Under the pieces are notes generated by a model. The model was given only the letters and a program-made list of their open reading frames with translations, made no database searches and had not been told where the DNA came from. 64,000 nucleotides of DNA from a virus: IMG/VR virus record IMGVR_UViG_3300024255_001563, positions 124,001 through 188,000 of that record; one strand, written 5' to 3'. The position numbers were made by a program, and so were the translations under genes. Below, one piece after another: positions 13,738 through 54,663 of the stretch; the first letter of the stretch is position 1, and each line of letters starts with the position of its first letter.

Positions 13738-13740
13738 TAC

Positions 13741-18306: not shown

Positions 18307-18800
18307 ATTTAAATGTAAAAAAATTTAAAGCGTCAATTGACAACTTTTTTGGCTGGGTAAAGAAAACAGAACTAGTAGAGCTAGATGATATTGATGTAAC
18401 AGAAGATCCAGTACGTCCAGAGCTTGATGTAGAATGGCGTACTAGTTATGGACGTAAGATATACGGACTAAAGCACGAAAATGAAATTGAAGGTATTATC
18501 TGCATTGCATATACTAATGATGTACCTAAAAGTGTAAAAGAGTTAGACTTAATGAGTCAAAATGCTCATTTTAAAAATGATGTTAATACGGCAGTTGCTT
18601 ATACAGTATGGAGTCGTAAGCGTGGCGCTGGTAAAGAGATAATACACAAAATAGGCGACTTAATGAAGTCTCGTGATGATATTGAAACACTAGTAACCCT
18701 ATCACCGTTAACGCCAATGGCAACACACTTTCACATACGTAATGGTGCAAAACAAATTGCTATTAGCAATACAACACAGAATTTTAAATATACATTATGA
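18303..18800 (+). CDS. GNAT-like N-acetyltransferase
   Basis: 165 residues. The segment AYTVWSRKRGAGKEIIHKIG has the R-x-x-G-x-G/A-K shape of the acetyl-CoA pyrophosphate loop of GNAT enzymes, followed by TLVTLSPLTPMATHFHIRNG, a beta5-alpha4-like region ending in a GA turn, and TTQNFKYT. The first ~40 residues are an acidic extension. ATGA overlaps link it to both neighbours, the second being the first radical SAM gene. Acyl transfer to an amine created or exposed by the neighbouring enzymes would be plausible; the substrate is unknown. Confidence 0.5.
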   Translation: MNLNVKKFKASIDNFFGWVKKTELVELDDIDVTEDPVRPELDVEWRTSYGRKIYGLKHENEIEGIICIAYTNDVPKSVKELDLMSQNAHFKNDVNTAVAYTVWSRKRGAGKEIIHKIGDLMKSRDDIETLVTLSPLTPMATHFHIRNGAKQIAISNTTQNFKYTL

Positions 18801-20179
18801 GTAATGAACAGCGTATACAAGTACTAGAAGAAAAACGTGAAAAGATAAACAATGTAAGTTGTTCATTCTGTACGGCTAAATGGTTACAAACTACGCTACT
18901 ATTACAAAACGGTTACAATCACAGTTGTCATCATCCTGCTCCACATAAGATTCCGTTGCACGAAATTGAAGCAAATCCAGCGGCACTACACAACAGTAAG
19001 TTTAAAAAAGAACAACGTGCTAAGATGCTTAAAGGTGAGCGTCCTAAGGAGTGCGGATACTGTTGGAAAATTGAAGACTTAGATAAAAACTATTTTAGTG
19101 ATAGACATTATAAAACAAGTGACTCTTGGGCCTGGGATAGATTTGAAGATATTGCTAAAAGCAATCCACAAGACGATGTGTACCCAAGTTACTTAGAAGT
19201 ATCATTTAGTAATGCTTGTAACTTTGCTTGTGCATACTGTTCACCTGAGATTAGTAGCAAGTGGATGGAAGACGTAAAGCAACACGGAGAATATCCAACC
19301 AAGCACGGTTCGCATAATCTAGACTATTTAAAAGAGTCTGGTAAGATGCCAATACCTAATAGAGAACATAATCCTTATGTAGAAGCATTTTGGAAATGGT
19401 TTCCTGATGCATTACCGCATTTAAAAGTGTTGCGTATCACAGGCGGCGAGCCTACTATGTCAAAAGATACCTGGAAGCTTCTAGATTATCTAATAGAAAA
19501 TCCACGCAAAGGTTTAGACATTTCCATTAATACAAACGGATGTGTAGAAGATAAACTAATTGACAAACTAATTTTAAAAGTTAACAAACTTGCAAAAGTA
19601 GGAGTTAAAGTTGACATATACACTAGTCTTGAAAGCACAGGCCGCCAGGCGGAATATGCTAGAGACGGATTAGTATACTATGATTGGGTTAAAAACATAG
19701 AGCGTTTGCTTTCTGAAACAAAAAGCACAGTTGCAATTATGACAACAATTAACATTCTTAGCTTGCCTACATTCGTCGACTTTATTATGACGGTAATGGA
19801 TTTGCGTAAACTTTATAATACTAGTTTTGAGTGTAATAGAGTGCCGTTGAGTATTAATATTATGCATTGGCCTCCGCATCTTCAATGTACTTTGCTCGAT
19901 AAAGAACAACGTGTAAAGACTGCTAACACTATTGAAACACTTTGCAAAAGTTGGTTAAAATATTATACTAAAGAAAAGTATGCTAGAATATATTTAGAAG
20001 AGTTTGATCAAATACAAAGATTTTGTGATTATTTAAGAACCTCAGAACCAACAGTGGAACACAGAGAAGACTTTGTAAGATACATACAAGCGTACGACAA
20101 AAGAAGAAATAAAGATTTTGCAGAAATATTTCCACAGTATACACATTTATTAGAGGAATGGAATGCCAAAGAAGACTGA
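18797..20179 (+). CDS. radical SAM protein with N-terminal twitch/SPASM-like domain (SCHHP variant)
   Basis: 460 residues. Radical SAM core with C141-x3-C145-x2-C148 (CNFACAYC) and the GGEP-type motif (RITGGEPTMS), the standard 4Fe-4S and SAM-binding signature. In front of the core is a ~100-residue Cys domain: FCTAKW near residue 24, SCHHP at 43-47, then ECGYCW at 85-90. Its layout matches a SPASM/twitch auxiliary cluster domain placed N-terminally, but CC is replaced by CHH. It is closely similar to the next gene. Such proteins usually modify peptides or other macromolecules; the target is unknown. Confidence 0.8.
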   Translation: MSNEQRIQVLEEKREKINNVSCSFCTAKWLQTTLLLQNGYNHSCHHPAPHKIPLHEIEANPAALHNSKFKKEQRAKMLKGERPKECGYCWKIEDLDKNYFSDRHYKTSDSWAWDRFEDIAKSNPQDDVYPSYLEVSFSNACNFACAYCSPEISSKWMEDVKQHGEYPTKHGSHNLDYLKESGKMPIPNREHNPYVEAFWKWFPDALPHLKVLRITGGEPTMSKDTWKLLDYLIENPRKGLDISINTNGCVEDKLIDKLILKVNKLAKVGVKVDIYTSLESTGRQAEYARDGLVYYDWVKNIERLLSETKSTVAIMTTINILSLPTFVDFIMTVMDLRKLYNTSFECNRVPLSINIMHWPPHLQCTLLDKEQRVKTANTIETLCKSWLKYYTKEKYARIYLEEFDQIQRFCDYLRTSEPTVEHREDFVRYIQAYDKRRNKDFAEIFPQYTHLLEEWNAKED

Positions 20180-21611
20180 TGAAACGTTACAACAGTATCG
20201 TGATAGAGTATTAGACAATAAAAGTAAGAGTTTCTGCGGAGCCAAGTGGTTTAACGCTACTACCTGGCTTGGTAGTGGTACAACTGCTAGTTGTCATCAC
20301 CCGCCTGCACATAAAATTCCATTAGTAGAAGTAGAAGCAGACTACACTGCTATTCATAATACCAAGCATAAAAAAGAAATGCGCCGCCAAATGCAGACAG
20401 GTGAACGCCCAGCTGAGTGCGAGTATTGTTGGAAAATGGAAGATATGAAAAAGGATGCTGTCAGTGACAGAACCTTTAAAAGCATTATCTATTCTGATGA
20501 AGAGTTACAACGTGCATATGATATGGATCATCATGAGAATGTTAATCTAAAAACATTTGAGATTGCTTTTGATAGAACGTGTAACTTAGCATGTAGTTAT
20601 TGCAATGCAAGTTTCTCAACTACGTGGGCTAAAGATATTAAAAAGAATGGCGAGTACACAAACTTAGTAAGTGATGGCGCTGGTGCATTTAGACAAGACG
20701 GCAGTTGGACACAACCTTACAAAGATGATGACGATAATCCTTACATTCAAGCGTTTTGGAAATGGTGGGATAATGGTTTAGCAGACAGTTTAGAGGAACT
20801 GCGTATCACTGGCGGCGAACCTTTAATGAGCGGAAACACTTGGAAGTTGTTTGATTGGTTTAATAAGCAAGATTCAGATATGCGTTTTGCAATTAATAGC
20901 AATCTAATTGCTAAAGATGCTATTATAGACAAGCTAATTGAGAAAACACAAGGTATGAATCACTTTGAGTTGTATACTAGTTGTGAAGCAGTAGGTGCTC
21001 AAGCAGATTATATTCGTGACGGACTAGATTATGACGAATGGACTAAAAATATTAAACGTATACTAACAGAAGCAAATACTAAAGGCGTACACATTATGAT
21101 GACTATTAACAGTCTTTGCTTGTTTAGTATTACAGAATTCTTAGATGATGTTTACAAACTAAAAGAGCTCACACAAAGTAGAACGCCAACTGTAAGTTTA
21201 AACTTATTACGCTTTCCGAGTTTTCAATCACCGCTGGCATTGCCTAATCATATTAAGGATCATTGCCATAATAAATTGTCAACATGGTATGAAGCTAACA
21301 AAGACAAGCCGGGCTGGAGTGAGTTTGAAAAAGCAAGTATTGAACGTTTAATAGATTACTTGGTAACTGTAGATGCTCCGCATAGACGTACAAGTAACCC
21401 TACTACACTATGGCGTGATTTTAAAACATTCTATGCACAGTATGATGTACGTAGAAACAAAAGCCTAAGTGTATTTCCTAAAATACTAACAGACTGGGTC
21501 GATAGTATTCCAGATACTGATGCAAGCATTATGGAACTTGCAGAAAAAGAAGGTTGGATATTAAAACCTGATAATAAAAACATAGAAATACCTTTGGCAA
21601 CGTATGACTGA
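20163..21611 (+). CDS. radical SAM protein with N-terminal twitch/SPASM-like domain (SCHHP variant), paralogue
   Basis: 482 residues, overlapping the previous gene by 17 bases and clearly its duplicate: FCGAKW, SCHHPPAHKIPL, AECEYCWKMED and SDRTFK all match the neighbour. The core has C140-x3-C144-x2-C147 (CNLACSYC) and RITGGEPLMS. A later segment (YTSCEAVGAQADYIRDGLDY) also matches YTSLESTGRQAEYARDGLVY in the paralogue. The C-terminal ~150 residues are helical. The pair may act as a heterodimer or on two related sites. Confidence 0.8.
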   Translation: MPKKTDETLQQYRDRVLDNKSKSFCGAKWFNATTWLGSGTTASCHHPPAHKIPLVEVEADYTAIHNTKHKKEMRRQMQTGERPAECEYCWKMEDMKKDAVSDRTFKSIIYSDEELQRAYDMDHHENVNLKTFEIAFDRTCNLACSYCNASFSTTWAKDIKKNGEYTNLVSDGAGAFRQDGSWTQPYKDDDDNPYIQAFWKWWDNGLADSLEELRITGGEPLMSGNTWKLFDWFNKQDSDMRFAINSNLIAKDAIIDKLIEKTQGMNHFELYTSCEAVGAQADYIRDGLDYDEWTKNIKRILTEANTKGVHIMMTINSLCLFSITEFLDDVYKLKELTQSRTPTVSLNLLRFPSFQSPLALPNHIKDHCHNKLSTWYEANKDKPGWSEFEKASIERLIDYLVTVDAPHRRTSNPTTLWRDFKTFYAQYDVRRNKSLSVFPKILTDWVDSIPDTDASIMELAEKEGWILKPDNKNIEIPLATYD

Positions 21612-22914
21612 TAAAATTGGACCTTACTTTTGCACAGCACCCTGGACACATACTTACGTTAGCCCGCAAGGCGAGCGTAGGTTGTGTTGTGCTAGTAGAG
21701 AAGATGCAAGTTTTCAAAAGCAGTATATAGATGCAGGTGATAAAGACAACACTGAATTTGATCCAATAACACTCGAAGAACATTGGAACAGCGATTATAT
21801 GAAAGATATTCGTAAGCGTATGTTAGCCGGAGAAAAACTAAGCCAGTGCGATGTGTGTAATAATCAAGTATTAAATTTACATACATACAAAAACTATTTT
21901 ACTAATACACTATTTCCGCACAAAGTCGAAGACATAATAGCTAGTACAAAAGAAGACGGCTACACAACTATGCAACCAATTAGTTTTGATTATCGTATAA
22001 GCAATCTTTGTAATTTTAAATGTCGCATGTGCGGTGAACAACTTAGTTCAAGTTGGGAAACTGAAAAGATTAAACATAATGTAGTTAACTACAAACGTGA
22101 AAAATGGATGCAACCAGACACACGAAAGAAGATTGCTACATTTCAAAAAGAAGTTCTCGAAACAGAACTACAAACAGCAGTTGACAAAGGCATTGTAGAG
22201 GAGTTATACTGGGTAGGCGGCGAGCCACTTATGTATGATATACATTGGCGTATTATGCAACAGCTAGTAGACGAAGAAAAAAGCCAAGACGTAGTTGTAC
22301 GTTATAATACAAACTTGAGCAGAACACACTACAAGAATTATAAACTGTACGACATGCTAGATAACTTCAAACGTGTTAACCTTTGTGCTAGTATAGACGG
22401 GGTAGGCGAAGTCGGCGAATACATTAGAACAGGACTCAAATGGGACGAGTGGCTACAAAACTTCAAAGATGGCATGTTTCTTATCAATAAGTATGGAGAC
22501 GATGCATTAGTATTTGATGTTACACTAACAACTCCGGGATTGTTTGATTTGAAACGTATGTTTGATGTAGTTACAGAATTAGATGTTAAGAGTTACTTTA
22601 AAATTACATTTGCATTTGACCCTAGTGTTCTAATGAGTCCTATGTGTTTGCCAAGAGAAGTATTAGATGAGCAAATACACAAACTACTAGACTACATTAA
22701 GCCTAGAGTTACACACAAAACTCGTGTGTACCAAGAAACATTAGAAAACATGCTTGAACGCAAAACGTTTGAAGAAGAATACACTGACTATAAAGATGGT
22801 TGGAGACGAGGTAAAAAGAATATAATGTTTATAGAAAGCATCAGAACGCAAGACGTTACATTTAGAGACACTCTTAGTGACGCAGGTAAAGAATGGTGGG
22901 ATAGCATTGAGTAA
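21604..22914 (+). CDS. radical SAM protein with N-terminal twitch/SPASM-like domain
   Basis: 436 residues, overlapping the previous gene by eight bases. N-terminal Cys domain: FCTAPWTHTYVSPQGERRLC with a CC pair at residues 28-29, LEEHWNSDYMKDIRKRML, and QCDVC at 81-85. Radical SAM core: C136-x3-C140-x2-C143 (CNFKCRMC) and WVGGEPLMYD. The series C-x2-PW, CC, E-x-WN, C-x2-C is that of SPASM domains, which normally follow the core. A conserved CASIDGVGEVGEYIRTG segment is shared with the other family members. Confidence 0.8.
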   Translation: MTDKIGPYFCTAPWTHTYVSPQGERRLCCASREDASFQKQYIDAGDKDNTEFDPITLEEHWNSDYMKDIRKRMLAGEKLSQCDVCNNQVLNLHTYKNYFTNTLFPHKVEDIIASTKEDGYTTMQPISFDYRISNLCNFKCRMCGEQLSSSWETEKIKHNVVNYKREKWMQPDTRKKIATFQKEVLETELQTAVDKGIVEELYWVGGEPLMYDIHWRIMQQLVDEEKSQDVVVRYNTNLSRTHYKNYKLYDMLDNFKRVNLCASIDGVGEVGEYIRTGLKWDEWLQNFKDGMFLINKYGDDALVFDVTLTTPGLFDLKRMFDVVTELDVKSYFKITFAFDPSVLMSPMCLPREVLDEQIHKLLDYIKPRVTHKTRVYQETLENMLERKTFEEEYTDYKDGWRRGKKNIMFIESIRTQDVTFRDTLSDAGKEWWDSIE

Positions 22915-24094
22915 TACATTTTGCCCTTTACCGTGGACACACTTAGCAACACATCCGCACGGTAGTGTTACACTTTGCTGTGAAAGCGATATGACGAATC
23001 GTGCAAGCGAATCTCAAAATTTACCACGTGAATTTATCACACTGCACAACTCAGAGTATGATTTTAAAAAAATAATGAACTCAGACTTGTTTAAACAAGT
23101 GCGCAAAGACATGCTAGAAGGTAAACAGCCAGCACCTTGTACAAAGTGTTACAAACTAGAAACACTAGGCAATCAAAGCAAACGTACCCGAGACACAGAG
23201 TTGCTGGACTTTAGCATAGAAGATGCACAGCGTATTACACAAACAGACGGCACACTAGATGAAGTTAACTTTGAGTTTATTGAACTGCGACTAGGCAATA
23301 TTTGCAACCTAGCATGTCGCAGTTGCAATCCACAGAGCAGTTCAAAATGGAAGAGCGACTGGGAAAAACTAAATGAGCGTAAATTTGATATGCCACAAAG
23401 CATGTTTGATTGGCCCTTAGATGAACGCTTTTGGGTAAGTCTAGCAGAACATTGTAATAACACACGCAAAGTATACATTAACGGCGGCGAACCTCTGCTA
23501 GTAGACAAGCACATGCGCTTCTTAGAGTTTTTGATTACCAAAGATTTGGCTAAGAATATTACACTAGTATACAGTACCAACAGTACAATCATAAACGACA
23601 AGTACGTTAACTTGTGGAACAAGTTTAAGCAGGTTGAGTTTATGGTGAGTATTGATTGTTTAGAAGACCGCAATAATTATTTGCGTCATCCTGCTAAGTG
23701 GAATAATATAATAGAAGCATTTGATTGGTTACATAGCTTAGGACATAAAAGTTATGTGTTACAAACAGTAAGTGTAATGAACATATACTATATCAAAGAG
23801 TTTTGGGAGTTCTTTAGAAGCAAGGGTGTTAATGTATCACATAATATGGTACATCATCCTAACTATTACAGTGCAGCAAATGCGCCTCAACATGCCAAAC
23901 AAGCAGTATTAGACAAGATTGTCGGCATGCCGTTCTATGGTAGTATAAATAATTTTTTAAGTCAAGAATCAAACACACTAGCATTTGAACAGTTCTTCAA
24001 AGAGAACGAAAGACTAGATGCTATACGTAAACAGAGTTACGCAGAGACGTTTAAAGAGTGGCACAACATAATAAAGGCAAACAATGACAGATAA
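22907..24094 (+). CDS. radical SAM protein with N-terminal twitch/SPASM-like domain (TTG start)
   Basis: 395 residues when begun at the TTG at 22907, which gives the same short lead before the first Cys as in the paralogues (SNTFCPLPW) and has GGTGGG six bases upstream; a GTG at 22877 is possible but would overlap the previous gene by 38 bases. Cys domain: FCPLPW, TLCCES, PCTKCYKLE. Core: C133-x3-C137-x2-C140 (CNLACRSC) and INGGEPLLVD. It shares VSIDCLEDRNNYLRHPAKW with the family. The 3' end overlaps the next start by 11 bases. Confidence 0.8.
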   Translation: MSNTFCPLPWTHLATHPHGSVTLCCESDMTNRASESQNLPREFITLHNSEYDFKKIMNSDLFKQVRKDMLEGKQPAPCTKCYKLETLGNQSKRTRDTELLDFSIEDAQRITQTDGTLDEVNFEFIELRLGNICNLACRSCNPQSSSKWKSDWEKLNERKFDMPQSMFDWPLDERFWVSLAEHCNNTRKVYINGGEPLLVDKHMRFLEFLITKDLAKNITLVYSTNSTIINDKYVNLWNKFKQVEFMVSIDCLEDRNNYLRHPAKWNNIIEAFDWLHSLGHKSYVLQTVSVMNIYYIKEFWEFFRSKGVNVSHNMVHHPNYYSAANAPQHAKQAVLDKIVGMPFYGSINNFLSQESNTLAFEQFFKENERLDAIRKQSYAETFKEWHNIIKANNDR

Positions 24095-25274
24095 ATTATG
24101 CGCTGCACCGTGGGTGCATCTACACACATTTCCGAGTGGGCAAGTTTATCCTTGTTGCCTTACACCTATGGAATTTCCTGTAGGAAATCTAAATAACCAA
24201 TCCTTAGAAGAAGTTTGGAATAACGAAAAAATACGTAATATTCGTAAACAAATGATTGCAGGTATAGAGCCAGAAAGCTGTAAACGATGCTTCGAACAAG
24301 AAAAACACGGCAAAGATAGCTTTAGAGAGCATATGAATCAAACGTTTCCAAATTATGAAAATCTAATACAAACCACCGCTGCTGACGGTTCGTTAGATAA
24401 TATGGATCTTCGTTATTGGGATTTTAGATTTTCAAACATTTGTAATATGAAATGCAGAAGCTGCGGACCTCAACTTAGCACCGGTTGGTATGAAGATACT
24501 AAAAAGATATGGGGCAGTCTTCCTAACGATATACCTGATAAAATTAAGCAATTTGATTTATGGGACCAAATTCTTCCGTTTTTTGATACTGTAGAAGAGA
24601 TTTATTTTGCAGGCGGCGAGCCTCTTATAATGGAAGAACATTATAGAATTTTAAAAAAGTTAGAAGAAATAGATAGGTATGACGTTCGTCTAAAGTATAA
24701 TACAAATTTTAGTCAGATGAAATACAAAAAGCTAGACGCTTTAGAAACATGGGCTAAGTTTAAAGATGTCGAAGTAGGTGCTAGTTTTGATGGCTACGGC
24801 AAACAAGCAGAATATATCCGAAAAGGAACTGATTGGGATCAAATCTATCAAAATAGGTTAAAACAAAAAGAAATAGCGCCTAATGTTAACTTTTTTGTAA
24901 ACTTTACATTAAGCGTAATGAATAGTTTGCATATTATTGATTTCCATCATTATGCAGTAGAGTCTAAATTAATAGATACCTACGATAATTTACATATTAA
25001 CTTTGTACATTCGCCTGAACATATGAGCTTACAAGCATTGCCGCCAAAGCTAAAAGAAACAGTAAAAGCAGCCTATAAAAAGCATATAAGTTTTTTAAAA
25101 GAAAATTTGCAGAATCGCTCCGCTGCTCAGTTTGAAAGTTCTATTAGTTTTATGGAATCAGAAGACAAATATATCTTAAATTCTAAATTTAAAGATTATA
25201 TGAAAACATTAGATGACATACGCAATGAGTCGTTTATAGACACGTTCCCGGAATTAAAAGAAATGCTTGAATGA
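24084..25274 (+). CDS. radical SAM protein with N-terminal twitch/SPASM-like domain
   Basis: 396 residues and the cleanest example of the family here. Residues 6-70 are textbook SPASM-like: CAAPWVHLHTFPSGQVYPCC, then GNLNNQSLEEVWNN, then SCKRCFEQE. The core follows with C120-x3-C124-x2-C127 (CNMKCRSC) and FAGGEPLIMEE, then GASFDGYGKQAEYIRKG. The normal order of these domains is reversed relative to anaerobic sulfatase-maturase-type enzymes. ATGA overlap with the next gene. Function: radical chemistry on an unknown substrate. Confidence 0.85.
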   Translation: MTDKLCAAPWVHLHTFPSGQVYPCCLTPMEFPVGNLNNQSLEEVWNNEKIRNIRKQMIAGIEPESCKRCFEQEKHGKDSFREHMNQTFPNYENLIQTTAADGSLDNMDLRYWDFRFSNICNMKCRSCGPQLSTGWYEDTKKIWGSLPNDIPDKIKQFDLWDQILPFFDTVEEIYFAGGEPLIMEEHYRILKKLEEIDRYDVRLKYNTNFSQMKYKKLDALETWAKFKDVEVGASFDGYGKQAEYIRKGTDWDQIYQNRLKQKEIAPNVNFFVNFTLSVMNSLHIIDFHHYAVESKLIDTYDNLHINFVHSPEHMSLQALPPKLKETVKAAYKKHISFLKENLQNRSAAQFESSISFMESEDKYILNSKFKDYMKTLDDIRNESFIDTFPELKEMLE

Positions 25275-26581: not shown

Positions 26582-26590
26582 GTTTATAAT
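26562..26590 (+). promoter_or_regulatory. consensus sigma70 promoter, predicted leaderless transcript
   Basis: TTGACA at 26562-26567, a 17-base spacer and TATAAT at 26585-26590. The -35 lies inside the end of the upstream gene. Only seven bases separate the -10 from the ATG at 26598, so the expected start of transcription falls on or next to the start codon, and no ribosome binding site is visible. Confidence 0.75.
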
Positions 26591-26597
26591 ATACATA

Positions 26598-32004: not shown

Positions 32005-32013
32005 GTAGATATA

Positions 32014-38374: not shown

Positions 38375-39213
38375 TTTTCTAAGTACCTTAGTAATGGGCT
38401 TACTCCTACTGGAGACCCACTACGATCTTTAGCAATATGTATACTGTTAGTTTCTTTTAAATTAAAATCTTTACAGATTTTTGAATAGTTTTCTAAATGA
38501 GTGCTCCAAAGATGTCCAGGCCTTGTATTTTTTAAAAAATGTAAACCTACCATTGCAAGCACTCTATTATTCATACGAAAGTCATTCATGATGCTAATTG
38601 AATCAGTAGTGTCTTTTGACCAACGCACACCAATTCTGTTCCAACCTAGTCCTAATCCTTTGCTTAAACTAATAGCAACGCTTTTTATAGCAGGATGATT
38701 AAAATTAAAATTAATATTTCTTGAACAAGTAATCCACGCTCCGTCTATGTGTACAGGTATACTCATATTATAGCATAAGTCTAATAATTTGTCAACGTCT
38801 TGTATAATGTCTCCTGTGCTAGGAAACGGCAATGCAAGTATAAGAGGAATGTTATCTTTTAATGTGTCTATAGTAACAGGCGTATTTCCTAATCGTTGAT
38901 GGTATTTATAATCGCCTTTTAGTGTTTGTACATCTCCGACCATATATTGATTGTCTATAAATTGTGTACAACCAATACAGATATCTTTTCGACTGAATGT
39001 TTCAAATCCTGTCAAATTGTTTTGTGGCATTAGTTGAATCCAAGCCTCGCACTCTTTAATAAAATCTTTGTACACTTGATCACTAGTGTCTTTACTAAAG
39101 TCATTTTGCATAACTTCTTGTATTAGACGTTCTATAGTTTTATCGGTTAATGGCTGCGGCCTATCAGTGTCTAGCCAGTCTTCTGTGTATGTTGTTGCTG
39201 TAAGTATATTCAC
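38371..39213 (-). CDS. PLP-fold (aminotransferase-like) protein
   Basis: About 280 residues from a GTG at 39213; the frame is open to a TTG at 39348, but that extension reads through the divergent gene. PVHIDGAWITC supplies the Asp that pairs with the pyridine nitrogen of PLP, and SLSKGLGLGWNRIGVRWSK contains the Schiff-base Lys in the S-x-S-K-x5-G-x-R-x-G-V pattern of fold type I aminotransferases. It is short for the family (usually 350-400), lacking part of the N-terminal lobe. ATGA overlap with the PP-loop gene. Possibly transaminates or decarboxylates an island intermediate. Confidence 0.5.
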   Translation of the reverse strand: MNILTATTYTEDWLDTDRPQPLTDKTIERLIQEVMQNDFSKDTSDQVYKDFIKECEAWIQLMPQNNLTGFETFSRKDICIGCTQFIDNQYMVGDVQTLKGDYKYHQRLGNTPVTIDTLKDNIPLILALPFPSTGDIIQDVDKLLDLCYNMSIPVHIDGAWITCSRNINFNFNHPAIKSVAISLSKGLGLGWNRIGVRWSKDTTDSISIMNDFRMNNRVLAMVGLHFLKNTRPGHLWSTHLENYSKICKDFNLKETNSIHIAKDRSGSPVGVSPLLRYLEK

Positions 39214-39217
39214 ATCG

Positions 39218-39225
39218 TATTTACC
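39218..39225 (-). promoter_or_regulatory. late promoter-like box abutting a start codon
   Basis: GGTAAATA on the minus strand, four bases before the proposed GTG start at 39213. It matches the TAAATA core of the late boxes but not the first two positions. The predicted transcript would be leaderless. Confidence 0.35.
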
Positions 39226-39240
39226 TGAGTTAACTGCGCA

Positions 39241-39248
39241 GATAAATA
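39241..39248 (+). promoter_or_regulatory. late promoter box abutting a start codon
   Basis: GATAAATA followed by five bases and the ATG at 39254. By T4 late-promoter spacing, transcription would start at the A of that ATG. The sequence from the TAAATA core to the ATG is almost identical to that at 49584-49597. Confidence 0.5.
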
Positions 39249-39253
39249 TTTCT

Positions 39254-39928
39254 ATGTTAACAATGACACAATATAATGTTCCTCCTCTCTTCCTTAAAGA
39301 CGGGTTAGATTCGATACCTTCTGAATCTTTTAGGACTGCAATTAACAAACCTACAGGAAATTTTTTCTATGACCCATGGGTTATAGCTGATGAATTTAAA
39401 GATACAGTTTGGGAAAGAATTTATAATACTTTGCTGGTAGAAGATAAGGGAGAAGCTAGATTAATTAAATTAGAACCTGGCGAGTGTTATCAATCACATG
39501 CAGATATTGATGACAGGTATCATCTTAATCTAAGTGGCAATAACTGTTTTCTTATTAATTTAGAAACTGAAAAACTAACGCCTTTAAATTTTGATGGTAT
39601 TTGGTGGGAAATGGATGCAGGAAGTATACACACTGCGGCAAATTTTGGCAATCGGACTAGATATCAGTTAGTAATAAGAAAACTACTTGACAAAGTAATA
39701 CTTGACAAGCCTGTTGAAGTAAGTATTACTATTCCTAAAACAGTAGATCAAGAAGACTGTAGATATATTTTTGACCAAAGAGTAAGTCCTTGGCTTAACA
39801 AAGCAAATAAACTAGGACTTATACAAGACTTCAAATATGCACCAAGAAACGTTAATTTCAAAACTACAAAAGAGAACATAGAAGATATTCAAGATATACT
39901 ACCAAGCGAGTTTACTTTAAATGTATGA
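39254..39928 (+). CDS. 2OG-Fe(II) oxygenase-like protein
   Basis: 224 residues from the ATG at 39254 (a second in-frame ATG lies at 39263); an upstream extension to 39086 would overlap the divergent gene and is rejected. The metal and co-substrate residues of the double-stranded beta-helix fold are in place: H82-x-D84 (CYQSHADIDDRYH), H126 (GSIHTAANFG) and R136 (RTRYQLV). The spacing resembles aspartyl/asparaginyl beta-hydroxylase-like enzymes. The stop overlaps the next start by eight bases. Expected to hydroxylate an unknown substrate. Confidence 0.6.
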   Translation: MLTMTQYNVPPLFLKDGLDSIPSESFRTAINKPTGNFFYDPWVIADEFKDTVWERIYNTLLVEDKGEARLIKLEPGECYQSHADIDDRYHLNLSGNNCFLINLETEKLTPLNFDGIWWEMDAGSIHTAANFGNRTRYQLVIRKLLDKVILDKPVEVSITIPKTVDQEDCRYIFDQRVSPWLNKANKLGLIQDFKYAPRNVNFKTTKENIEDIQDILPSEFTLNV

Positions 39929-41120
39929 TACTAAAGACTGGAAACACTTTTTAAAAATTGATCCTGAATCATTTGACAGGACAATGAATAATAATTTATA
40001 TACTCCATTTGTGAGTCCGGATGGAAAAATTTTATGTATGCACTGGGATAAAGCCAGTGAATATCAAAAACGAGACGGACAAGGAAGGGTACTTACAAAT
40101 GATCTAATGGATTTCTTTTTTGAAAGAGAATTAAAATACCTAAAATTATTTAAAAACTATGCCTGGTGTCCAGAAGTATTGTCTATAGATTATACCAATA
40201 AAAAAATTTTTATAGAATGGCATAACGAAACTTGCAATGACATTATATACGGTGAAGGTGATATAGACAAACAATTTCCTGATTGGCAAGAACAACTCTT
40301 TACTATAATTAATGATATTACAAAAAGTGGACATTATAAAACTAGTTTGTATCCTCATTGTTTTTTCTTTAATAGTAAAGGACAATTAAAAACATTTGAT
40401 ATGTATGCATGTACACATAAAGATGATCCTTATATTTCCTTTGAGCAAATAAAAGGTATGATGGGTAAAGAATCTATGGAAAGTGGTAGATTCAAAGAAG
40501 CGTCAGAAGGCGATTCTTTAAACTTAGGAAAATTTTTTAAACGAGCATTAGCCGAACATGTAATATGGCCCCATAATGCATTACAAAGAATATATGAGCG
40601 TGTATTTTTTGATTGGAACAATGTTATTGATGACTTAGAAAAACAAGACGGTGTAAGTATTACTGCTGATCCAAGTAAATGGAATCTAGATACACCGGGA
40701 TATACAGACATTTATAAGTTATGGCAAGAAGCAAACTTTAATCCTAGTGCAATTAAATGGATTAACTATTACCCTAAGACCCACTATTCTAAAAAAATTA
40801 TAGATGAACTATCTGAAGGGTTGCATATTAAAGTATTGCGATCTTGGATTAGTAAAATAGAGCCAGGATACTTTGCACCTTGGCACTGGGATGTTGACGA
40901 TAACGAAGAAGAGTATTTACAAGGTGGCGATATTGTTAGATATAGTTGTTTCATTGAACCGCCTGCAATGGGTCATGTGTTTATAATTAACGATGATTAT
41001 TACTTTAATATGCTACAAGGCAAAATAGTAAAATGGAATAATTATAAAGATTGGCATTGTGGAATTAATGGCGGATTAAAATCTAAATATATGTTACATA
41101 TATTAGGAAATCCTTTATAA
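39921..41120 (+). CDS. kinase-like domain fused to a 2OG-Fe(II) oxygenase domain
   Basis: 399 residues. Residues ~1-250 resemble a small protein-kinase/aminoglycoside-kinase-type fold: FFERELKYLKLFKNY, EVLSIDYTNKKIFIEWH, then SGHYKTSLYPHCFFFNSKGQ followed by LKTFDMYAC. The same region exists alone in the gene at 45154. The C-terminal ~140 residues hold an oxygenase jelly roll: WHWDVDD with H322-x-D324, MGHVFIIND, and KDWHCGINGG with H379; the usual Arg is replaced by Lys nearby. The fusion suggests that substrate handling or phosphorylation and hydroxylation are coupled. Convergent with the next gene, overlapping by six bases. Confidence 0.5.
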   Translation: MYDTKDWKHFLKIDPESFDRTMNNNLYTPFVSPDGKILCMHWDKASEYQKRDGQGRVLTNDLMDFFFERELKYLKLFKNYAWCPEVLSIDYTNKKIFIEWHNETCNDIIYGEGDIDKQFPDWQEQLFTIINDITKSGHYKTSLYPHCFFFNSKGQLKTFDMYACTHKDDPYISFEQIKGMMGKESMESGRFKEASEGDSLNLGKFFKRALAEHVIWPHNALQRIYERVFFDWNNVIDDLEKQDGVSITADPSKWNLDTPGYTDIYKLWQEANFNPSAIKWINYYPKTHYSKKIIDELSEGLHIKVLRSWISKIEPGYFAPWHWDVDDNEEEYLQGGDIVRYSCFIEPPAMGHVFIINDDYYFNMLQGKIVKWNNYKDWHCGINGGLKSKYMLHILGNPL

Positions 41121-41657
41121 GGATTTTGACAAATCTTTGTAAGTTGTTATCTGAAAAGTGTATCTAGGTTTAAAACCAATATTAACTGCACCGTGTATAC
41201 ACATCGGGTCACTCCATCTGTATAAATCACCGGCTTTATAGTTACTAATCATCTTATCTTCGTATTGATAAATGTGTCCAGGTTGCCAGTCTTGTAAAAA
41301 TAAAGTGTAACGCTGTGGATCTTCTGCATATACTAATTGTGGGTCAAAATGCATAGGTTGAAATTGTCCTGGTAGCAATTTTATAAACCACCAATAACTT
41401 TCTCTACCTTCTTCTTCGCCTAGCGGAGGAAGCTCAACATTTATACCTTTTATATCAGGACTACTATTAGCATATTGATGAAACACATCTCCTCTATCAG
41501 CATACCCGCTTCTTGTTTTTTCGCGAGCTTCGTCTAGCATAGGATGATCTTTCCACTTATCTGGCTGCCATACTGGAACAACATCACCTGTGCGATTTTC
41601 CATAGCATCCATTATTTCGTCTGTAACGAATTCTCTATAGTTATCTAAAAATATCAT
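41115..41657 (-). CDS. small 2OG-Fe(II) oxygenase, array copy 5
   Basis: 180 residues. H103-x-D105 (QPMHFDPQ), H155 (CIHGAVNIGF) and R165 (KPRYTFQI) are the iron and 2-oxoglutarate ligands. The strand between them (DWQPGHIYQYEDKMISNYKA followed by GDLYRW) is shared with the three genes upstream, making four tandem paralogues. The stretch YWWFIKLLPGQFQP is also common. Last gene of the minus-strand operon that begins at 45113; the start overlaps the previous stop as ATGA. Confidence 0.65.
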   Translation of the reverse strand: MIFLDNYREFVTDEIMDAMENRTGDVVPVWQPDKWKDHPMLDEAREKTRSGYADRGDVFHQYANSSPDIKGINVELPPLGEEEGRESYWWFIKLLPGQFQPMHFDPQLVYAEDPQRYTLFLQDWQPGHIYQYEDKMISNYKAGDLYRWSDPMCIHGAVNIGFKPRYTFQITTYKDLSKSL

Positions 41658-42163
41658 TTAATTATCCTTTGTGTAATATTTAGGGCAAGTCGAGTAGAAA
41701 ATCCTATATTACTCGATCCATGTAGCAGATCCGGATCAGTAAACATAAACATATCTCCTGCTTTATAGTCGATGGCTAATTCATTATTACAGATTAACAG
41801 ATGGCCCGGTTGATAATCCAGCATTGACATCCAATATCGTGCTACAGTTGTAGTTTCCTCTTCTTCTTGATCAACGTGTAACGGGCTATATTGACCGGGT
41901 TTTTGTTTTATGAACCACCAAAGAACAGCATTCTCGACTGGCATTTCTATATCAAATGGTAAATCGTTTTTTTCAAAAAAACAACTCCATTCCGTTGTAA
42001 GATCATAGCCTGCGTTTTTAAACTTGTTAAAAATATGGTTTTCAAAATCGTTCTCAGATTCTTTGTTACACGGACGAGGAACACCGTCGTTTTCTAACAT
42101 ATACCTTACCCATTCGGGATTAATCCAGTGAGAATAGTTTCCTATATATTTGAGTGATTTCAT
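41654..42163 (-). CDS. small 2OG-Fe(II) oxygenase, array copy 4
   Basis: 169 residues. H96-x-D98 (SPLHVDQE), H148 (DLLHGSSNIGF) and R158 (STRLALNI) complete the facial triad and the 2-oxoglutarate clamp. Opens with YIGNYSHWINPEWVRYML, which is shared with copy 3 (YIGNYADWISDEWVDYIL), and has the DYQPGHLLICNNELAIDYKA strand pair of the array. ATGA overlaps on both sides. No signal peptide; expected to be cytoplasmic. Confidence 0.65.
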   Translation of the reverse strand: MKSLKYIGNYSHWINPEWVRYMLENDGVPRPCNKESENDFENHIFNKFKNAGYDLTTEWSCFFEKNDLPFDIEMPVENAVLWWFIKQKPGQYSPLHVDQEEEETTTVARYWMSMLDYQPGHLLICNNELAIDYKAGDMFMFTDPDLLHGSSNIGFSTRLALNITQRIIK

Positions 42164-42687
42164 TTAGCACTCCATGTAGTAAAATTAAACACTAGTCTAG
42201 TATAATGTCCCATATTACCTCCAGCATGCCAAGCATCGCTTTTATGAAACTTAAACAAATCGCCTTTCTTATAATTGCTTACTTGTTCATTTTCATACCA
42301 GAATATATGCCCTTCTTTAAAGTCTTGCATAGGCATCCAATAACGATTAACATTTAATCCATCTTCTATTGGCAAGTCTTGATGCACCGGTTGTACTTTT
42401 CCAACATTATACTTAACAAACCACCATTCATTATCTGTATAGGTTTCTTCTATTTCTGGTAGTATAAGTTTAAACGGAAATTGTTCTTGTTTATATGAGT
42501 GACAAACTGTATCATTAAAGTCCCATTCTTCTCTACCGTGAAAATCATCATTACCTACAAAACAAGTTTGTTCTACTATATCTTTAGGTATTGCTTTAGG
42601 CAATCTTTCGCCGTCATTGTTTAAAATGTAATCAACCCATTCGTCTGAGATCCAGTCTGCATAATTTCCAATATAAATTAAACTCAT
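42160..42687 (-). CDS. small 2OG-Fe(II) oxygenase, array copy 3
   Basis: 175 residues. H102-x-D104 (QPVHQDLP), H154 (DAWHAGGNMGH) and R164 (YTRLVFNFT) are in place. It is closest to copy 2 upstream: both have VQPVHQD and HAGGNMG/HGGGNMG, and both carry an N-terminal DWI-DEW helix. The segment between the N-terminal helix and the core differs (VEQTCFVGNDDFHGREEW), which may reflect different substrates. Coupled by ATGA on both sides. Confidence 0.65.
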   Translation of the reverse strand: MSLIYIGNYADWISDEWVDYILNNDGERLPKAIPKDIVEQTCFVGNDDFHGREEWDFNDTVCHSYKQEQFPFKLILPEIEETYTDNEWWFVKYNVGKVQPVHQDLPIEDGLNVNRYWMPMQDFKEGHIFWYENEQVSNYKKGDLFKFHKSDAWHAGGNMGHYTRLVFNFTTWSAK

Positions 42688-43262
42688 TTAGGATACACCG
42701 TTAAGTTAAAGGTTAATCTAGTAGAATGTCCCATATTGCCTCCGCCGTGCCAGATATCTTCGCCGTCGTGTTTGAACATATCTCCTTTTTTGTAGTCTTT
42801 AAGTATTTTATTGTCATAAAGGAACAAATGTCCTCTTTTATAATCTTGTAAAGGTATCAAGTATCTTTCAACATTGTTTTTGTTTGACATTGCTACGCCG
42901 TCAACATACTCTTTTCCGTAATCTGCATAATCTTGATGTACTGGTTGTACCATACCTGGGCGTAGTTTCATAAAAAACCATTCGTGTTCATGAGGTATGT
43001 CAAATGGCATTTCAACTTTAAAAGGAAGTTCGTGTTGTTTATATGTAATACAACAGACCCAATCAGTTCCCCATTCTTCTTTTCCGTCTGCAATTCTAAC
43101 TCCGCTATTAGGATCCTCGCCTCTTATAGCGGCGTCAACCATACCAGGCTCTTCCTCGGCTGTAGCATCTCTTGGAAAACAAGAACCGTCTACAGAAAGA
43201 AAGTGTTCTATCCATTCGTCTTTGATCCAGTCTGCATAATTGTTTACAACCTTTAATGCCAT
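42684..43262 (-). CDS. small 2OG-Fe(II) oxygenase, array copy 2
   Basis: 192 residues. H109-x-D111 (QPVHQDYADYG), H172 (DIWHGGGNMGH) and R182 (STRLTFNLT). Compared with copy 3 it has an insertion of about ten residues after the HxD motif (KEYVDGVAMSNKNN). YKRGHLFLYDNKILKDYKKG is the shared strand pair. It starts at the last base of the preceding stop (TAATG), showing tight coupling within the oxygenase array. Confidence 0.65.
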   Translation of the reverse strand: MALKVVNNYADWIKDEWIEHFLSVDGSCFPRDATAEEEPGMVDAAIRGEDPNSGVRIADGKEEWGTDWVCCITYKQHELPFKVEMPFDIPHEHEWFFMKLRPGMVQPVHQDYADYGKEYVDGVAMSNKNNVERYLIPLQDYKRGHLFLYDNKILKDYKKGDMFKHDGEDIWHGGGNMGHSTRLTFNLTVYPK

Positions 43263-44068
43263 TAATAACTCTCCAAATGATTAATACCTAATTGTGTGCG
43301 AAATTCTTCTGTAAATTTGCCGTCAATGCGTAGTGCATAACTAGGTTCCATTGTCATTTCGCCACCGTGCCAGTCTTGATCATTCCACCAAGCGGCTCTT
43401 GTATTTAGATATGTTTTATTCTTCTTTTCCGGATCCCATACATAAAACGCTTTTTTAGTGTTAGGTCTAATATGTATAAATTCATTACGATGCGGATATC
43501 TTACATCGACACCGTTTTTAGCATCTAAGTCTCTATGTTCAAAAGGTATTCCTCCTGCTTCAATGCAGAAAAATATGACTCTACCAATATGCTTAAATAT
43601 ACCATTATCGACCATTTGGTTAACCCACTTAACTGCACCTGGAAAATACGCTGCTTCTGGTGTAGGTTTTCTTTCAGCAGTTCTGTCGTTCCAGTCACCT
43701 TCTTCCCAAAGAAAGTAATAAGTGTAAGGATCATATGCACCAACTGCCATTTTTAAATAACGTGTAAATAAATTTCTTGTATGATGATCTTTAATGTTAT
43801 CATACATTTTCATACCTTCTATTTTAATAGGATCGTTGTCGTCTAATGCCATAAACTTGTCAATAGCATACGGAATAGGTAACCAGTTTAATTTATAGCT
43901 ACAGTCGTCCCAAGTAAAACCGGGTCGCATCCATGTACCTTCTTTTGCTAAATCTTTTGCTTCTGCAAATCCTCTTAGTATTTCAGGTTGCAACTTATCA
44001 AACGTAGTCATATCTAAAAATGGTTCTAAGTCAAGATATGGCTTTTTGTCTATACCTTTAAATGACAT
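43262..44068 (-). CDS. 2OG-Fe(II) oxygenase-like protein, 268 aa, array copy 1
   Basis: 268 residues. A larger relative of the array: FEHRDLDAKNG gives H178-x-D180, DQDWHGGEMT gives H234 and SYALRIDG gives R247. The N-terminal ~160 residues are a separate helical region (MYDNIKDHHTRNLFTRYLKM) not present in the small copies. AGGIPFEHRD and EFIHIRPNTK recall aspartyl/asparaginyl hydroxylase-type enzymes. AGGAGA at the end of the upstream radical SAM gene serves as ribosome binding site, two bases separate the genes, and it is co-transcribed with that enzyme. Confidence 0.6.
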   Translation of the reverse strand: MSFKGIDKKPYLDLEPFLDMTTFDKLQPEILRGFAEAKDLAKEGTWMRPGFTWDDCSYKLNWLPIPYAIDKFMALDDNDPIKIEGMKMYDNIKDHHTRNLFTRYLKMAVGAYDPYTYYFLWEEGDWNDRTAERKPTPEAAYFPGAVKWVNQMVDNGIFKHIGRVIFFCIEAGGIPFEHRDLDAKNGVDVRYPHRNEFIHIRPNTKKAFYVWDPEKKNKTYLNTRAAWWNDQDWHGGEMTMEPSYALRIDGKFTEEFRTQLGINHLESY

Positions 44069-44069
44069 T

Positions 44070-45113
44070 TTATCTCCTATATTTTTCTGGCACTGTGTCG
44101 TGCAAAGGCAATCCGTTATTTACTGATGCATCTCTTAGTATTGCCTGATGAACAAGTGGGCTAATTGGTTTTCCTGGTAAAAAATCTGCCCAAGTCTCTG
44201 TTTCCATTTCTTCTAAGTCTATAGTTTTTACATCAGGCCATTGTATTAGTTTTATAAAAACTCCGTTAATTAAAACAGGATAATGTGCCCTGATGCCTAA
44301 TTGCGAGTTTGTTTCGTATGTCCAATTATTCTTAACACATAGTTCTTTTACATAACCTACTAGTTGACTTAGATAAATTTTTTCTTCTTTAGGATTTCTT
44401 CCAATGTCTGCACTTACACGTATTCTAAAATGATTGCATATGTCTTTATTAAAATCTAATATTTCTTTAATGCAATCTTCTGTTTGGAATAAACCTTCTA
44501 GAGTAAAACTTACATCTTTTATGTCTAGACCTAAGTCTTTACAGTTACGCATGCCTTCTTCTTGTTTATGTCTTACAGTGTGACCTTGGTAGTCAGGATG
44601 GTTTAACCCTACAGTCCAGCTTACATTATCAAATTCTGTAAACTGCTGTGCATATTCTTTTCTTGAAAGATTCACACCGTTTGTTAATATAAAAATATGT
44701 CGCGGCTTCATATCAATAGAATTAATTGCTTTTATTATATCATATAAATCTTTTCTTACTGTAGGCTCAGCGCCGGCAAAACAAATATTATATCCATCAT
44801 CGTCCCAAGACTTTACTTTATCTACATAATATTGCACAGACTCGTCGATGCTTTTATTATCTGGTATTTGATAACAATGCGGGCATGCTAGATTGCACCT
44901 ATTTGTAAGTTCTATAAAGTAAGTATCTAGTACACGTCTAGGATATTGATAATTTTTGTAAAATTCAGCATTAGGTTCTATCAGGTGCTCGATTTTATCG
45001 TGATCCGGACAATGCTTCTCTAGCCAAACTTGTCCGTCACGTTCTAATTTTATTGCCGGTATGTGTCTATAACAATGTTCGCATAGACTGATAGTGTCAG
45101 ATATCTTGTTCAT
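44070..45113 (-). CDS. radical SAM protein, COG1964-like, with N-terminal Cys knuckle
   Basis: 347 residues from the ATG at 45113 (a TTG lies one codon before). The N-terminus LCEHCYRHIPAIKLERDGQV then HCPDH (C11, C14, C35) is the zinc/rubredoxin-like lead of the COG1964 group, which contains enzymes acting on lipids and other large substrates. Core C73-x3-C77-x2-C80 (CNLACPHC) and FAGAEPTVRK, where GGEP is GAEP. It has no close paralogue in the window and heads the operon of five oxygenases, which suggests sequential action on one substrate. Confidence 0.75.
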   Translation of the reverse strand: MNKISDTISLCEHCYRHIPAIKLERDGQVWLEKHCPDHDKIEHLIEPNAEFYKNYQYPRRVLDTYFIELTNRCNLACPHCYQIPDNKSIDESVQYYVDKVKSWDDDGYNICFAGAEPTVRKDLYDIIKAINSIDMKPRHIFILTNGVNLSRKEYAQQFTEFDNVSWTVGLNHPDYQGHTVRHKQEEGMRNCKDLGLDIKDVSFTLEGLFQTEDCIKEILDFNKDICNHFRIRVSADIGRNPKEEKIYLSQLVGYVKELCVKNNWTYETNSQLGIRAHYPVLINGVFIKLIQWPDVKTIDLEEMETETWADFLPGKPISPLVHQAILRDASVNNGLPLHDTVPEKYRR

Positions 45114-45119
45114 CAATAA

Positions 45120-54662: not shown

Positions 54663-54663
54663 A

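Follow-up and report, generated by a model that had tools for sequence, protein, structure and literature searches.

Radical SAM genes fill much of a hypervariable bay behind a fibre and glycosyltransferase cassette in a T4-like phage

What does a phage do with thirteen radical SAM (rSAM) enzymes encoded close together beside its tail fibres? The question arises from a 64,000-nt stretch (the window; positions 124,001 to 188,000) of the IMG/VR record IMGVR_UViG_3300024255_001563, a T4-like virus of 200.8 kb whose capsid protein matches that of Sinorhizobium phage Phosso at 76%, which places the virus nearest the jumbo T4-like phages by this protein. The initial annotation had counted thirteen rSAM genes between 18797 and 45113, and a PF04055 search of the whole 200,843-base record confirmed the count with 13 matches (E 1.2e-17 to 1.5e-6), 11 of them above the curated cut-off; the rSAM core was thereby found in every protein, and all 13 carry CxxxCxxC. 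The start of the region stood, but the last ORF stops at 45116. No rSAM gene was found outside 18797-45116 by PF04055 in the whole record, or by our own HMMs in eight other stretches of it. A gene named queE at 61217-62197 did not keep its name, as its best score of 46 bits against 260 falls far short of the cut-off in each of the five listed QueE models; its motif is CxxxCxxF, with the third Cys missing, a form also present in 6 other members of this QueE-like family in the fetched virus loci. There was no sign of an assembly chimera, a possibility raised in the same annotation, because two other metagenome contigs (three fetched stretches; samples possibly not independent) match 20916-45536 at 100%, and each of them gave 13 PF04055 matches.

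Family models and alignments agreed with the proposed split of the set into seven proteins with an N-terminal twitch-like domain, three with C-terminal cysteines, two SPASM-like proteins and one other. Seven of the 13 scored 305-411 bits against NF033640 (N_Twi_rSAM; cut-off 170) and are therefore members by NCBI's cut-off, while five of the remaining six scored 29-51 bits and one was absent among the best 25 matches listed. The library description of NF033640 names no function. A common C-terminal Cys pattern was aligned in rSAM 6, 10 and 11 (A2 type), a SPASM-like C-terminus marks rSAM 7 and 8 (A3 type), and rSAM 13, which we take to be a COG1964 protein, resembles Tes/TrsS at scores below the cut-offs. 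None of the 13 reached the cut-off of a RiPP rSAM maturase model among the matches listed (at most 25 per protein); the viperin model NF038283 gave at best 53 bits against a cut-off of 180, and among the seven of the 13 proteins that were scanned, PADLOC pVip scored no more than 53 bits, with part of the model covered. The A3-type profile (A12) matched BlsE best (7vob, E 3.9e-9). For orthogroup e, the best profile match was 8vpo (E 4.9e-7, over the core), the twitch domain aligned to BtrN (E 1.4e-5), and a fold search with the AlphaFold model of rSAM 5 (pLDDT 90.3) returned the peptide maturases CteB, anSME and SkfB together with BlsE on top. The substrate of BtrN is an aminocyclitol.

Much of a hypervariable bay (about 18307-53743) is taken up by the rSAM genes, and the bay follows a near-fixed cassette of collar fibres, a fibre, a small protein, two GT8-like glycosyltransferases and one GT-A-fold glycosyltransferase (Table 1). 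In loci drawn from the best 80 GT8a loci, fib lay at most four genes upstream of GT8a in 73/75 and c33 at most two genes upstream in 75/75, and where at least 7 kb was available downstream, both a second GT8 and GTrep were present in 53/53. The survey of this neighbourhood that had been suggested located at least one rSAM gene behind the cassette in 46 of 53 loci, and at least two in 30 of 53; these are counts of loci rather than of independent events, because the loci are related. The 35 loci with single a and b genes carry 35 distinct sequence pairs. The loci for the rSAM and GT8 counts were the best 80 from each of several longer match lists (three rSAM scans, one GT8 scan), and their genes were called by a simple script that takes the longest ORF and may lose genes that overlap, as it did at 39086-39928. 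The seven rSAM-free bays are almost empty, holding one gene only, another GTrep, and in these phages the same right block comes after gene c40, which starts 620-1035 nt from the GTrep end. The content of the bay therefore ranges from almost empty to rSAM-rich, and in this phage a tropism-determinant-like gene stands at its right end.

Table 1 Features of the window. The names GT8, SGNH, 2OG, kinase, ThyX, FolE and MoxR were given partly or wholly by reading the sequence.
Feature	Position	Strand	Basis
Tail-collar fibre-like genes (three)	7149-9242, 9242-11203, 11240-12787	+	left, constant block; Pfam Collar E 3.4e-17 in 7149-9242 only; PHROGs tail, tail fibre or virion structural families; one family, c16
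fib, two fibre-like genes, c15/c37	12817..14769	+	named by position; no Pfam match for 12817, no PHROGs match for either
Small conserved protein c33	14830..15177	+	kept upstream of GT8a
GT8a and GT8b, GT8-like glycosyltransferases	15174..16860	+	partial profile match; no Pfam match
GTrep, GT-A-fold glycosyltransferase-like	17407..18306	+	last gene of constant cassette; predicted structure; no Pfam match
rSAM 1, N_Twi, orthogroup a	18797..20179	+	NF033640 E 2.5e-98
rSAM 2, N_Twi, orthogroup b	20163..21611	+	NF033640 E 6.4e-91
rSAM 3, N_Twi, orthogroup c	21604..22914	+	NF033640 E 2.4e-96
rSAM 4, N_Twi, orthogroup d	22877..24094	+	NF033640 E 5.2e-102
rSAM 5, N_Twi, orthogroup e	24084..25274	+	NF033640 E 7.7e-123
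GTx, family c4/c100, putative glycosyltransferase	25271..26581	+	family matches; no Pfam match
GTrep homologue, repeated N-terminal segments	26598..28532	+	family c1 E 1e-156; weak GT2 match E 0.0072, below cut-off
rSAM 6, A2 type (C-terminal Cys)	28492..29502	+	PF04055; A2 alignment
Class-I-methyltransferase-like, c0	29499..30104	+	family; PF01564 E 0.0085, below cut-off
SGNH-hydrolase-like, c67	30097..30915	+	fold name by sequence reading; 0 Pfam families
rSAM 7 and 8, A3 type, SPASM-like C-terminus	30916-32004, 32014-33096	+	PF04055
rSAM 9, N_Twi, orthogroup f	33093..34505	+	NF033640 E 9e-117
rSAM 10, A2 type	34502..35539	+	PF04055; A2 alignment
rSAM 11, A2 type	35523..36479	-	PF04055; convergent with rSAM 10
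rSAM 12, N_Twi, orthogroup g	36421..37686	-	NF033640 E 1.8e-98
PP-loop ATPase-like, c8	37676..38374	-	PF01171 E 0.0012, below cut-off
PLP-aminotransferase-like	38371..39348	-	NF006967 E 1.1e-5, far below cut-off
Asp/Arg-hydroxylase-like	39086..39928	+	PF05118 E 0.0018, below cut-off
Kinase-like and oxygenase-like fusion	39921-41120	+	name by sequence reading
Four paralogous 2OG-oxygenase-like genes	41115-43262	-	names by sequence reading
c11	43262-44068	-	family match
rSAM 13, Tes/TrsS-like	44070..45116	-	NF045646 E 2.5e-24, NF045702 E 5.1e-24, both below cut-off
Major-tropism-determinant N-terminal domain protein	52290..53696	-	right end of bay; PF18454 Mtd_N E 4.8e-11, above cut-off; no PHROGs match
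Right constant block c77, c38, c45, c54, c103	53744..56553	-	family matches

PF04055 matched 3-19 times in each of 37 other virus records and at least 10 times in 20 of them, a sample that is biased because all were found via rSAM queries and picked by length. Given these numbers and the 46 of 53 GT8a loci, the earlier description of the rSAM density as extraordinary for a virus was too strong. A tblastn search of 50,697 records for cultured phages with GTrep or orthogroup a gave no match at 1e-5.

The last gene of the cassette was assigned from its predicted structure. The AlphaFold model of GTrep (pLDDT 90.7) found as its best Foldseek match 2p6w, the PBCV-1 capsid glycosyltransferase (E 4.1e-5; VIA-align Z 10.0, rmsd 3.3, 139 aligned), a likeness confined to the GT-A fold (TM-score 0.28-0.37). 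PBCV-1 belongs to a different virus realm. With D65 and D67 invariant and one residue between them, GTrep is predicted to combine a GT-A fold with a DxD motif, the pairing looked for in a virion-glycosylating enzyme. The GT8 profile (A11) matched glycogenin-1 weakly and over residues 15-105 only (E 0.0043), and D107 and D109 are invariant in the GT8 alignment (A15). Nothing convincing came back when profiles of the methyltransferase, GTrep, PP-loop and unknown U families were searched against PDB sequences.

The seven N_Twi copies form seven separate clades in a single midpoint-rooted FastTree tree of the 557 sequences left from 769 after removal of near-duplicates, each clade being the most inclusive one that contains a single window copy and has local support of at least 0.9. 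Recent tandem duplication is ruled out by one clade per copy, and the phylogeny that had been recommended to tell duplication from acquisition showed separate lineages, all seven common to other phages and five also to bacteria. Clades f and g hold no bacterial sequence in this sample, a weak absence because orthogroup e led the query used to fetch the bacterial loci. The order of a, b, e and c is fixed in other phages; the window departs from it in having c ahead of e. Its b-c-d-e array recurs on a Bacteriovoracaceae contig, adjoining rplU/obgE, where no glycosyltransferase was seen by eye and three of four scanned neighbours lack a Pfam match; a Paenibacillus copy lies, by eye, among acyl-carrier-like genes. 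Epimerase- and UDP-Glc-dehydrogenase-like genes accompany orthogroup e in four bacterial loci (L278, L282, L284 and L285), and Pfam confirmed both in L282, together with a carbamoyltransferase, PhyH proteins and an ABC ATPase. Across 72 bacterial N_Twi loci, an NDP-sugar family occurred in 5 and a carbamoyltransferase in 6, and no family prevailed among 91 immediate neighbours of bacterial N_Twi genes (top 3/91; glycosyltransferase family 2 in 2/91), a census limited to loci of at least 14 kb and uncut genes of 130-700 aa (91 immediate of 233 genes within three places).

Sugar-linked families, by our own grouping of GTx, NDP-sugar, carbamoyl, APS-kinase-like, ArnB-like and SGNH genes, occur in 34 of the 46 rSAM-bearing bays, the other 12 having none within reach; the rSAM-free bays offer no control for this link, because all seven are empty. 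For GTx and SGNH the library gave no match. Two or more TM-like segments, counted by a hydropathy threshold in place of a trained predictor, were found in 2/685 non-rSAM genes of the virus arrays versus 143/941 in the bacterial loci, and at least one in 41/685 of the former. Gaps beside rSAM genes (n=1815) are at most 20 nt in 92% and at least 100 nt in 3.7%, so there appears to be little room for precursor-peptide genes beside rSAM genes, as judged among ORFs of at least 60 aa, and a RiPP cluster in cis was considered unlikely on this ground. The record has no Fe-S carrier gene of its own by Fe-S_biosyn match. Matches to TATAAATA, which we take as the T4-type late promoter consensus, numbered 6 versus 11.5 expected, giving no signal as a clue to timing.

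Several published systems come close. The host-recognition cluster (HRC) of pelagimyophages, which are T4-like marine phages, is in the available part of PMC7029224 a hypervariable island that combines tail fibres and glycosyltransferases with rSAM cassettes. The bay is likewise a variable island with tail fibres and glycosyltransferases, but here, set against that account, the left edge is a near-fixed fib-c33-GT8-GT8-x-GTrep, the N_Twi genes keep a set order and the virus is nearest jumbo T4-like phages; the HRC itself lies between VrlC and gp14. Campylobacter phages CP220 and CPt10 carry 11 and 12 rSAM genes according to the portion of PMC2853527 consulted. As in the window, rSAM genes of CP220 lie beside nucleotide-diphospho-sugar-transferase-like genes, one of them 4.4 kb from a tail fibre gene; unlike the window, its cluster includes an amidinotransferase, and tblastn gave it no match to orthogroup a and none to orthogroup e among the matches listed (40 records, all Vibrio). 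The T4-like ocean virus TARA_ERS488813_N000010 has a similar number, 12 rSAM genes, which the accessible text of PMC5332604 reads as Fe-S metabolism with an A-type carrier; by that published description it differs from the window's record, which has no Fe-S_biosyn match. In the cultured SAR11 phage Mosig (Pelagibacter phage EXVC030M, MT647606), a fibre-side tract contains A2- and A3-type rSAM, c0 methyltransferase, carbamoyltransferase, PLP and hydroxylase genes and a gene annotated as UDP-4-amino-arabinose aminotransferase, but, unlike the window, no N_Twi among 25 translated tract genes and CxxxCxxC in 2/25.

Taking these observations together, we give a probability of about 0.5 to the reading that the bay enzymes tailor a phage-made glycan, most likely on the phage's own tail fibres. 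That sugar chemistry is involved we consider likely, and similar sets in related phages probably serve to decorate host-touching virion parts. For this reading speak the location behind the cassette, the GT-A fold with its invariant Asp pair, the sugar-linked bays, the four orthogroup e loci of bacteria, the Mosig tract, the likeness to BtrN and BlsE, the few TM genes, as in a soluble pathway, and the scant room for peptide genes; against it speak the few sugar families and the lack of a prevailing neighbour in the bacterial N_Twi loci, the Bacteriovoracaceae and Paenibacillus contexts, the peptide maturases atop the orthogroup e fold search, the weak GT8 match, GTx and SGNH without library match and the 12 bays without a sugar link. 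We infer the acceptor and chemistry as follows. In the cytoplasm, the glycosyltransferases would assemble a sugar chain attached to the fibre. Acting on sugars or sugar nucleotides, a-e and the A2 and A3 enzymes would catalyse one radical reaction after another (dehydrogenation, epimerisation, deoxygenation or the formation of C-C bonds). The decoration would be completed by partners of the methyltransferase, hydrolase, PLP and oxygenase kinds, and in other phages also by a carbamoyltransferase; its variety may alter receptor binding or shield the virion. More tentatively, a-e could be a multi-step radical pathway, so far undescribed, for one unusual sugar or residue, common to jumbo phages (beside tail fibres) and Bacteriovoracaceae, with further rSAM modules swapped behind it by phages, giving the receptor-binding end a diversifying virus-made glycan.

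The same enzyme types belong to envelope loci, as in L282, where orthogroup e lies beside the carbamoyltransferase, epimerase, UDP-Glc dehydrogenase and ABC ATPase, and the enzymes might instead remodel the O antigen or capsule of the infected host and block superinfection, a role proposed for glycosyltransferases of pelagimyophages and jumbo cyanophages in the consulted parts of PMC7029224 and PMC7824862. However, the arrays are closely linked to fibre genes and so poor in membrane proteins that there is no sign of a flippase or polymerase of their own, which the host could supply, and we regard this role as rather unlikely. Direct modification of a tail-fibre or other phage protein, with epimerised, crosslinked or oxidised residues and the oxygenase-like genes targeting that protein as well, would fit the adjacent fibre genes, the weak Asp/Arg hydroxylase likeness of 39086-39928 and the maturases among the best Foldseek matches of orthogroup e; it is unlikely in view of the RiPP-maturase cut-offs reached by none of the 13 among the matches listed, the bacterial loci L256, L263, L268 and L287, in which no fibre gene was seen by eye, and the common sugar-linked neighbours.

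Many redox enzymes in a row, a bacterial b-c-d-e array without a visible glycosyltransferase and the resemblance of rSAM 13 to the lipid-joining enzyme Tes would suit a soluble secondary metabolite or cofactor, including a RiPP with its precursor encoded elsewhere, but precursor genes have scant room beside the rSAM genes and the place behind the fibres is left without reason, making this improbable. The evidence favours sugar chemistry near tail fibres over a classical RiPP pathway, without settling it. rSAM enzymes are used in thymine hypermodification in other phages, and the QueE-like gene and a FolE-like gene lie at 61-63 kb; phage DNA hypermodification or queuosine-type chemistry is nevertheless very improbable, as the rSAM array stops 16 kb before these genes and lies beside fibre genes, and a reading by eye of the 55 listed neighbour families showed none for DNA modification.

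As early as 2010, large sets of rSAM genes were recorded in phages (PMC2853527), and they are not known to have an accepted function; sets of 11-12 and a host-recognition cluster with rSAM genes are already known. New here are the variable bay of rSAM genes behind a near-fixed cassette, the seven N_Twi clades, the conserved a/b/e/c order and the bacterial b-c-d-e counterpart, together with the scant space for precursor-peptide genes and the near absence of membrane proteins; the open-licence texts searched, in the parts available, gave no account of a fibre-glycosyltransferase-rSAM cassette or of the a-e order. The rSAM sets now have a defined place, an insertion bay flanked by receptor-binding genes, and this placement, the empty-bay comparison, the enzyme order and the bacterial counterpart together turn a curiosity into a testable claim. 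It may be that giant aquatic phages vary a decoration of their own making on the adhesion apparatus, much as bacteria diversify O antigens, and the arrays point to a wealth of rSAM chemistry still to be tapped.

Among the partners, the six genes of 39921..44068 belong to families c3/c6/c10/c11, with no Pfam match for the four scanned. The c0 family is the commonest rSAM partner (136 loci), and 122 of its 137 members adjoin an rSAM gene, as do 54 of 62 in c8; convergent A2-A2 neighbours like rSAM 10 and 11 were counted 62 times in the fetched loci.

A profile search of the entire 200,843-base virus record, whose capsid gene (Gp23, E 6.2e-99) marks it as T4-like, returned 13 PF04055 matches, every one inside the region reported by the initial annotation, and all 13 radical SAM (rSAM) proteins contained the CxxxCxxC motif. 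The proposed division into subfamilies was likewise borne out: seven members scored far over the cut-off of NF033640 (NCBIfam, N-terminal-twitch radical SAM), hereafter N_Twi, while three of the remaining six had a common C-terminal Cys pattern (A2), two were SPASM-like (A3) and one was Tes/TrsS-like. The genes overlap or almost touch, and the thirteen-gene finding is real.

Its rarity, by contrast, had been overstated: thirteen stands as a count, but a PF04055 census of 40 records (37 other viruses, two contigs of the same virus and phage CP220) gave 3 to 19 rSAM genes per record, with at least 10 in 20 of the 37 other viruses, in a sample biased to rSAM carriers since its virus records were obtained via rSAM queries and chosen for length. 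Eleven and 12 rSAM genes are also in print for Campylobacter phages CP220/CPt10, with metabolic help at low oxygen as the proposed role (PMC2853527), and 12 for a T4-like ocean genome, treated there as Fe-S metabolism (PMC5332604). The pelagimyophage host recognition cluster is described as containing rSAM cassettes (PMC7029224), and the main text of a review of 224 jumbo phages nowhere has "radical SAM" and describes glycosyltransferase clusters as producing diversified outer polysaccharides (PMC7824862).

To survey the neighbourhood independently of rSAM, we used the best 80 loci retrieved via the glycosyltransferase-like gene GT8a: among the 53 loci whose downstream sequence extends for 7 kb or more, 46 carry an rSAM gene and 30 at least two. 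The layout is nearly constant, running from collar fibres through at least one fibre gene, family c33, GT8a, GT8b, a small gene and GTrep (GT8b and GTrep each in 53/53) to a variable stretch, with a fibre gene at most four genes upstream of GT8a in 73/75 loci and c33 at most two genes upstream in 75/75. Seven phages have just a second GTrep between this cassette and c40, the head of the next conserved block, over a distance of 620-1035 nt in all; they can serve as natural controls for what the rSAM region does. In the window, the cassette and the right block (c77, c38, c45, c54 and c103, without c40) lie ~35.4 kb apart and enclose 37 listed ORFs, including the 13 rSAM genes, with a major-tropism-determinant N-terminal domain protein at the right end. 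Taken together, the nearly fixed cassette, the near-empty bays and the tropism-determinant-like protein indicate that the rSAM genes occupy an insertion bay between receptor-binding genes, an organisation that is new as far as our searches reach.

Window features and phage loci with a near-empty bay
Feature	Position or loci	Strand	Remark
End of left cassette	18306		
Thirteen rSAM genes	18797-45116		
Stretch matched on other contigs	20916-45536		
GTrep homologue	26598-28532	+	644 aa; about four repeated segments ahead of glycosyltransferase-like domain
Four tandem oxygenase-like paralogues	41115-43262	-	no Pfam match for the two scanned
Start of right block	53744		
DUF2201 VWA/metallopeptidase-like gene	55207-56553	-	just past bay; adjoins MoxR-like ATPase
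MoxR-like ATPase	56652-57737	-	just past bay; named by eye
QueE-like protein	61217-62197	-	scores far under QueE cut-offs; CxxxCxxF instead of CxxxCxxC
Near-empty-bay loci	L381, L387, L388, L390, L392, L409, L410		only second GTrep in bay

Such a set could in principle be an assembly chimera or the residue of local duplication. There is no sign of the former, given that most of the rSAM region matches at 100% three stretches from two contigs of other metagenomes, each with 13 rSAM genes. As to duplication, a tree of 557 N-terminal-twitch proteins placed the seven N_Twi copies in seven clades, a-g (each taken as the largest clade that contains a single window copy at a support of 0.9 or more; local support 0.94-1.0), all common to other phages. 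Clades a-e include bacterial sequences, and f and g contained none in this sample, fetched with a query led by orthogroup e. Gene order is kept as well: across 73 virus loci with at least two of a-e, own virus excluded, a preceded b (35/35), c (28/28) and e (46/46), and b preceded c (28/28) and e (34/34), with d rare (4 or 5 comparisons). The window order, c before e, occurred in 3/31, which makes a-b-e-c the order usual in phages; the window has a variant in common with a Bacteriovoracaceae locus (L263, UBA6144) beside rplU/obgE, in which b-c-d-e run consecutively on one strand within an array of eight N_Twi genes, with further copies, including a and b, following. In this respect, a-e look like a linked enzyme set and not duplication leftovers.

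What the rSAM enzymes might act on was approached through their partners. GTrep has a confident AlphaFold model with a predicted GT-A fold; Foldseek ranks the PBCV-1 capsid glycosyltransferase first, the VIA-align matches (Z up to 10.0, 3.3 Å, 139 residues) also include nucleotidyltransferases of the same superfamily, and two invariant Asp are consistent with a DxD motif. GT8a/b match glycogenin weakly and partially, with an invariant D-x-D in GT8a. Across 250 fetched loci and the window, 1301 of 4667 ORFs encode proteins that match the rSAM profile and carry the motif, a total in which copies of the same virus, further stretches of its record and loci that overlap are counted too. Partner families by loci were methyltransferase-like (136), GTrep (104), putative glycosyltransferase GTx (68) and PP-loop (59), besides SGNH-like, 2OG-oxygenase-like, PLP and NodU-type carbamoyltransferase families; the oxygenase-like family c10 occurs in 50 loci, window included. 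Bacterial orthogroup-e genes lie in four loci with NDP-sugar genes (L278, L282, L284 and L285; Pfam-confirmed in L282), a minority arrangement (NDP-sugar family in 5/72 bacterial loci, carbamoyltransferase in 6/72), and no prevailing family was found among the genes directly beside bacterial N_Twi genes.

Two sugar- or cyclitol-related enzymes turned up in the comparisons: BtrN, whose twitch domain aligns with the N-terminal domain of orthogroup e, and BlsE, the closest match to the A3 type. The substrate class cannot be read from the fold by itself, since the Foldseek matches listed for e mix peptide maturases, BlsE and Tes, and A2 is nearest MoaA. Gaps beside rSAM genes, 92% of 1815 being at most 20 nt, leave little room for precursor genes. 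At least two TM-like segments were present in 2/685 non-rSAM genes of virus arrays versus 143/941 in bacterial loci, which speaks for a soluble pathway acting on a cytoplasmic acceptor. Our best reading, at roughly an even chance (about 0.5), is that the rSAM bay, linked to the tail fibres, serves to tailor a glycan made by the phage; acceptor, sugar and reactions are all inferred.

By its capsid protein, the virus stands closest to jumbo T4-like phages: Sinorhizobium phage Phosso shares 76% identity, Vibrio phage 2.275.O 73% and the PA5oct group 70%. In turn, tblastn of GTrep and orthogroup a gave no match among 50,697 phage records. The cultured SAR11 phage Mosig carries a pared-down version that comprises rSAM genes of types A2 and A3, methyltransferase and carbamoyltransferase genes and an aminotransferase annotated for UDP-4-amino-arabinose.

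A further family (c20/c34; L007, L009, L013 and others; not seen in the window) has an invariant N-x-L-H-x-x-F-E-x-L-x-G and adjoins an rSAM gene for 44/45 members, and profiles found no convincing PDB relative. The gene at 61.2 kb named queE encodes a QueE-like protein that scores far under QueE cut-offs; the third motif Cys is absent from this protein and from its six relatives in fetched virus loci, so the third cluster ligand would have to come from elsewhere, or the enzyme be altered.
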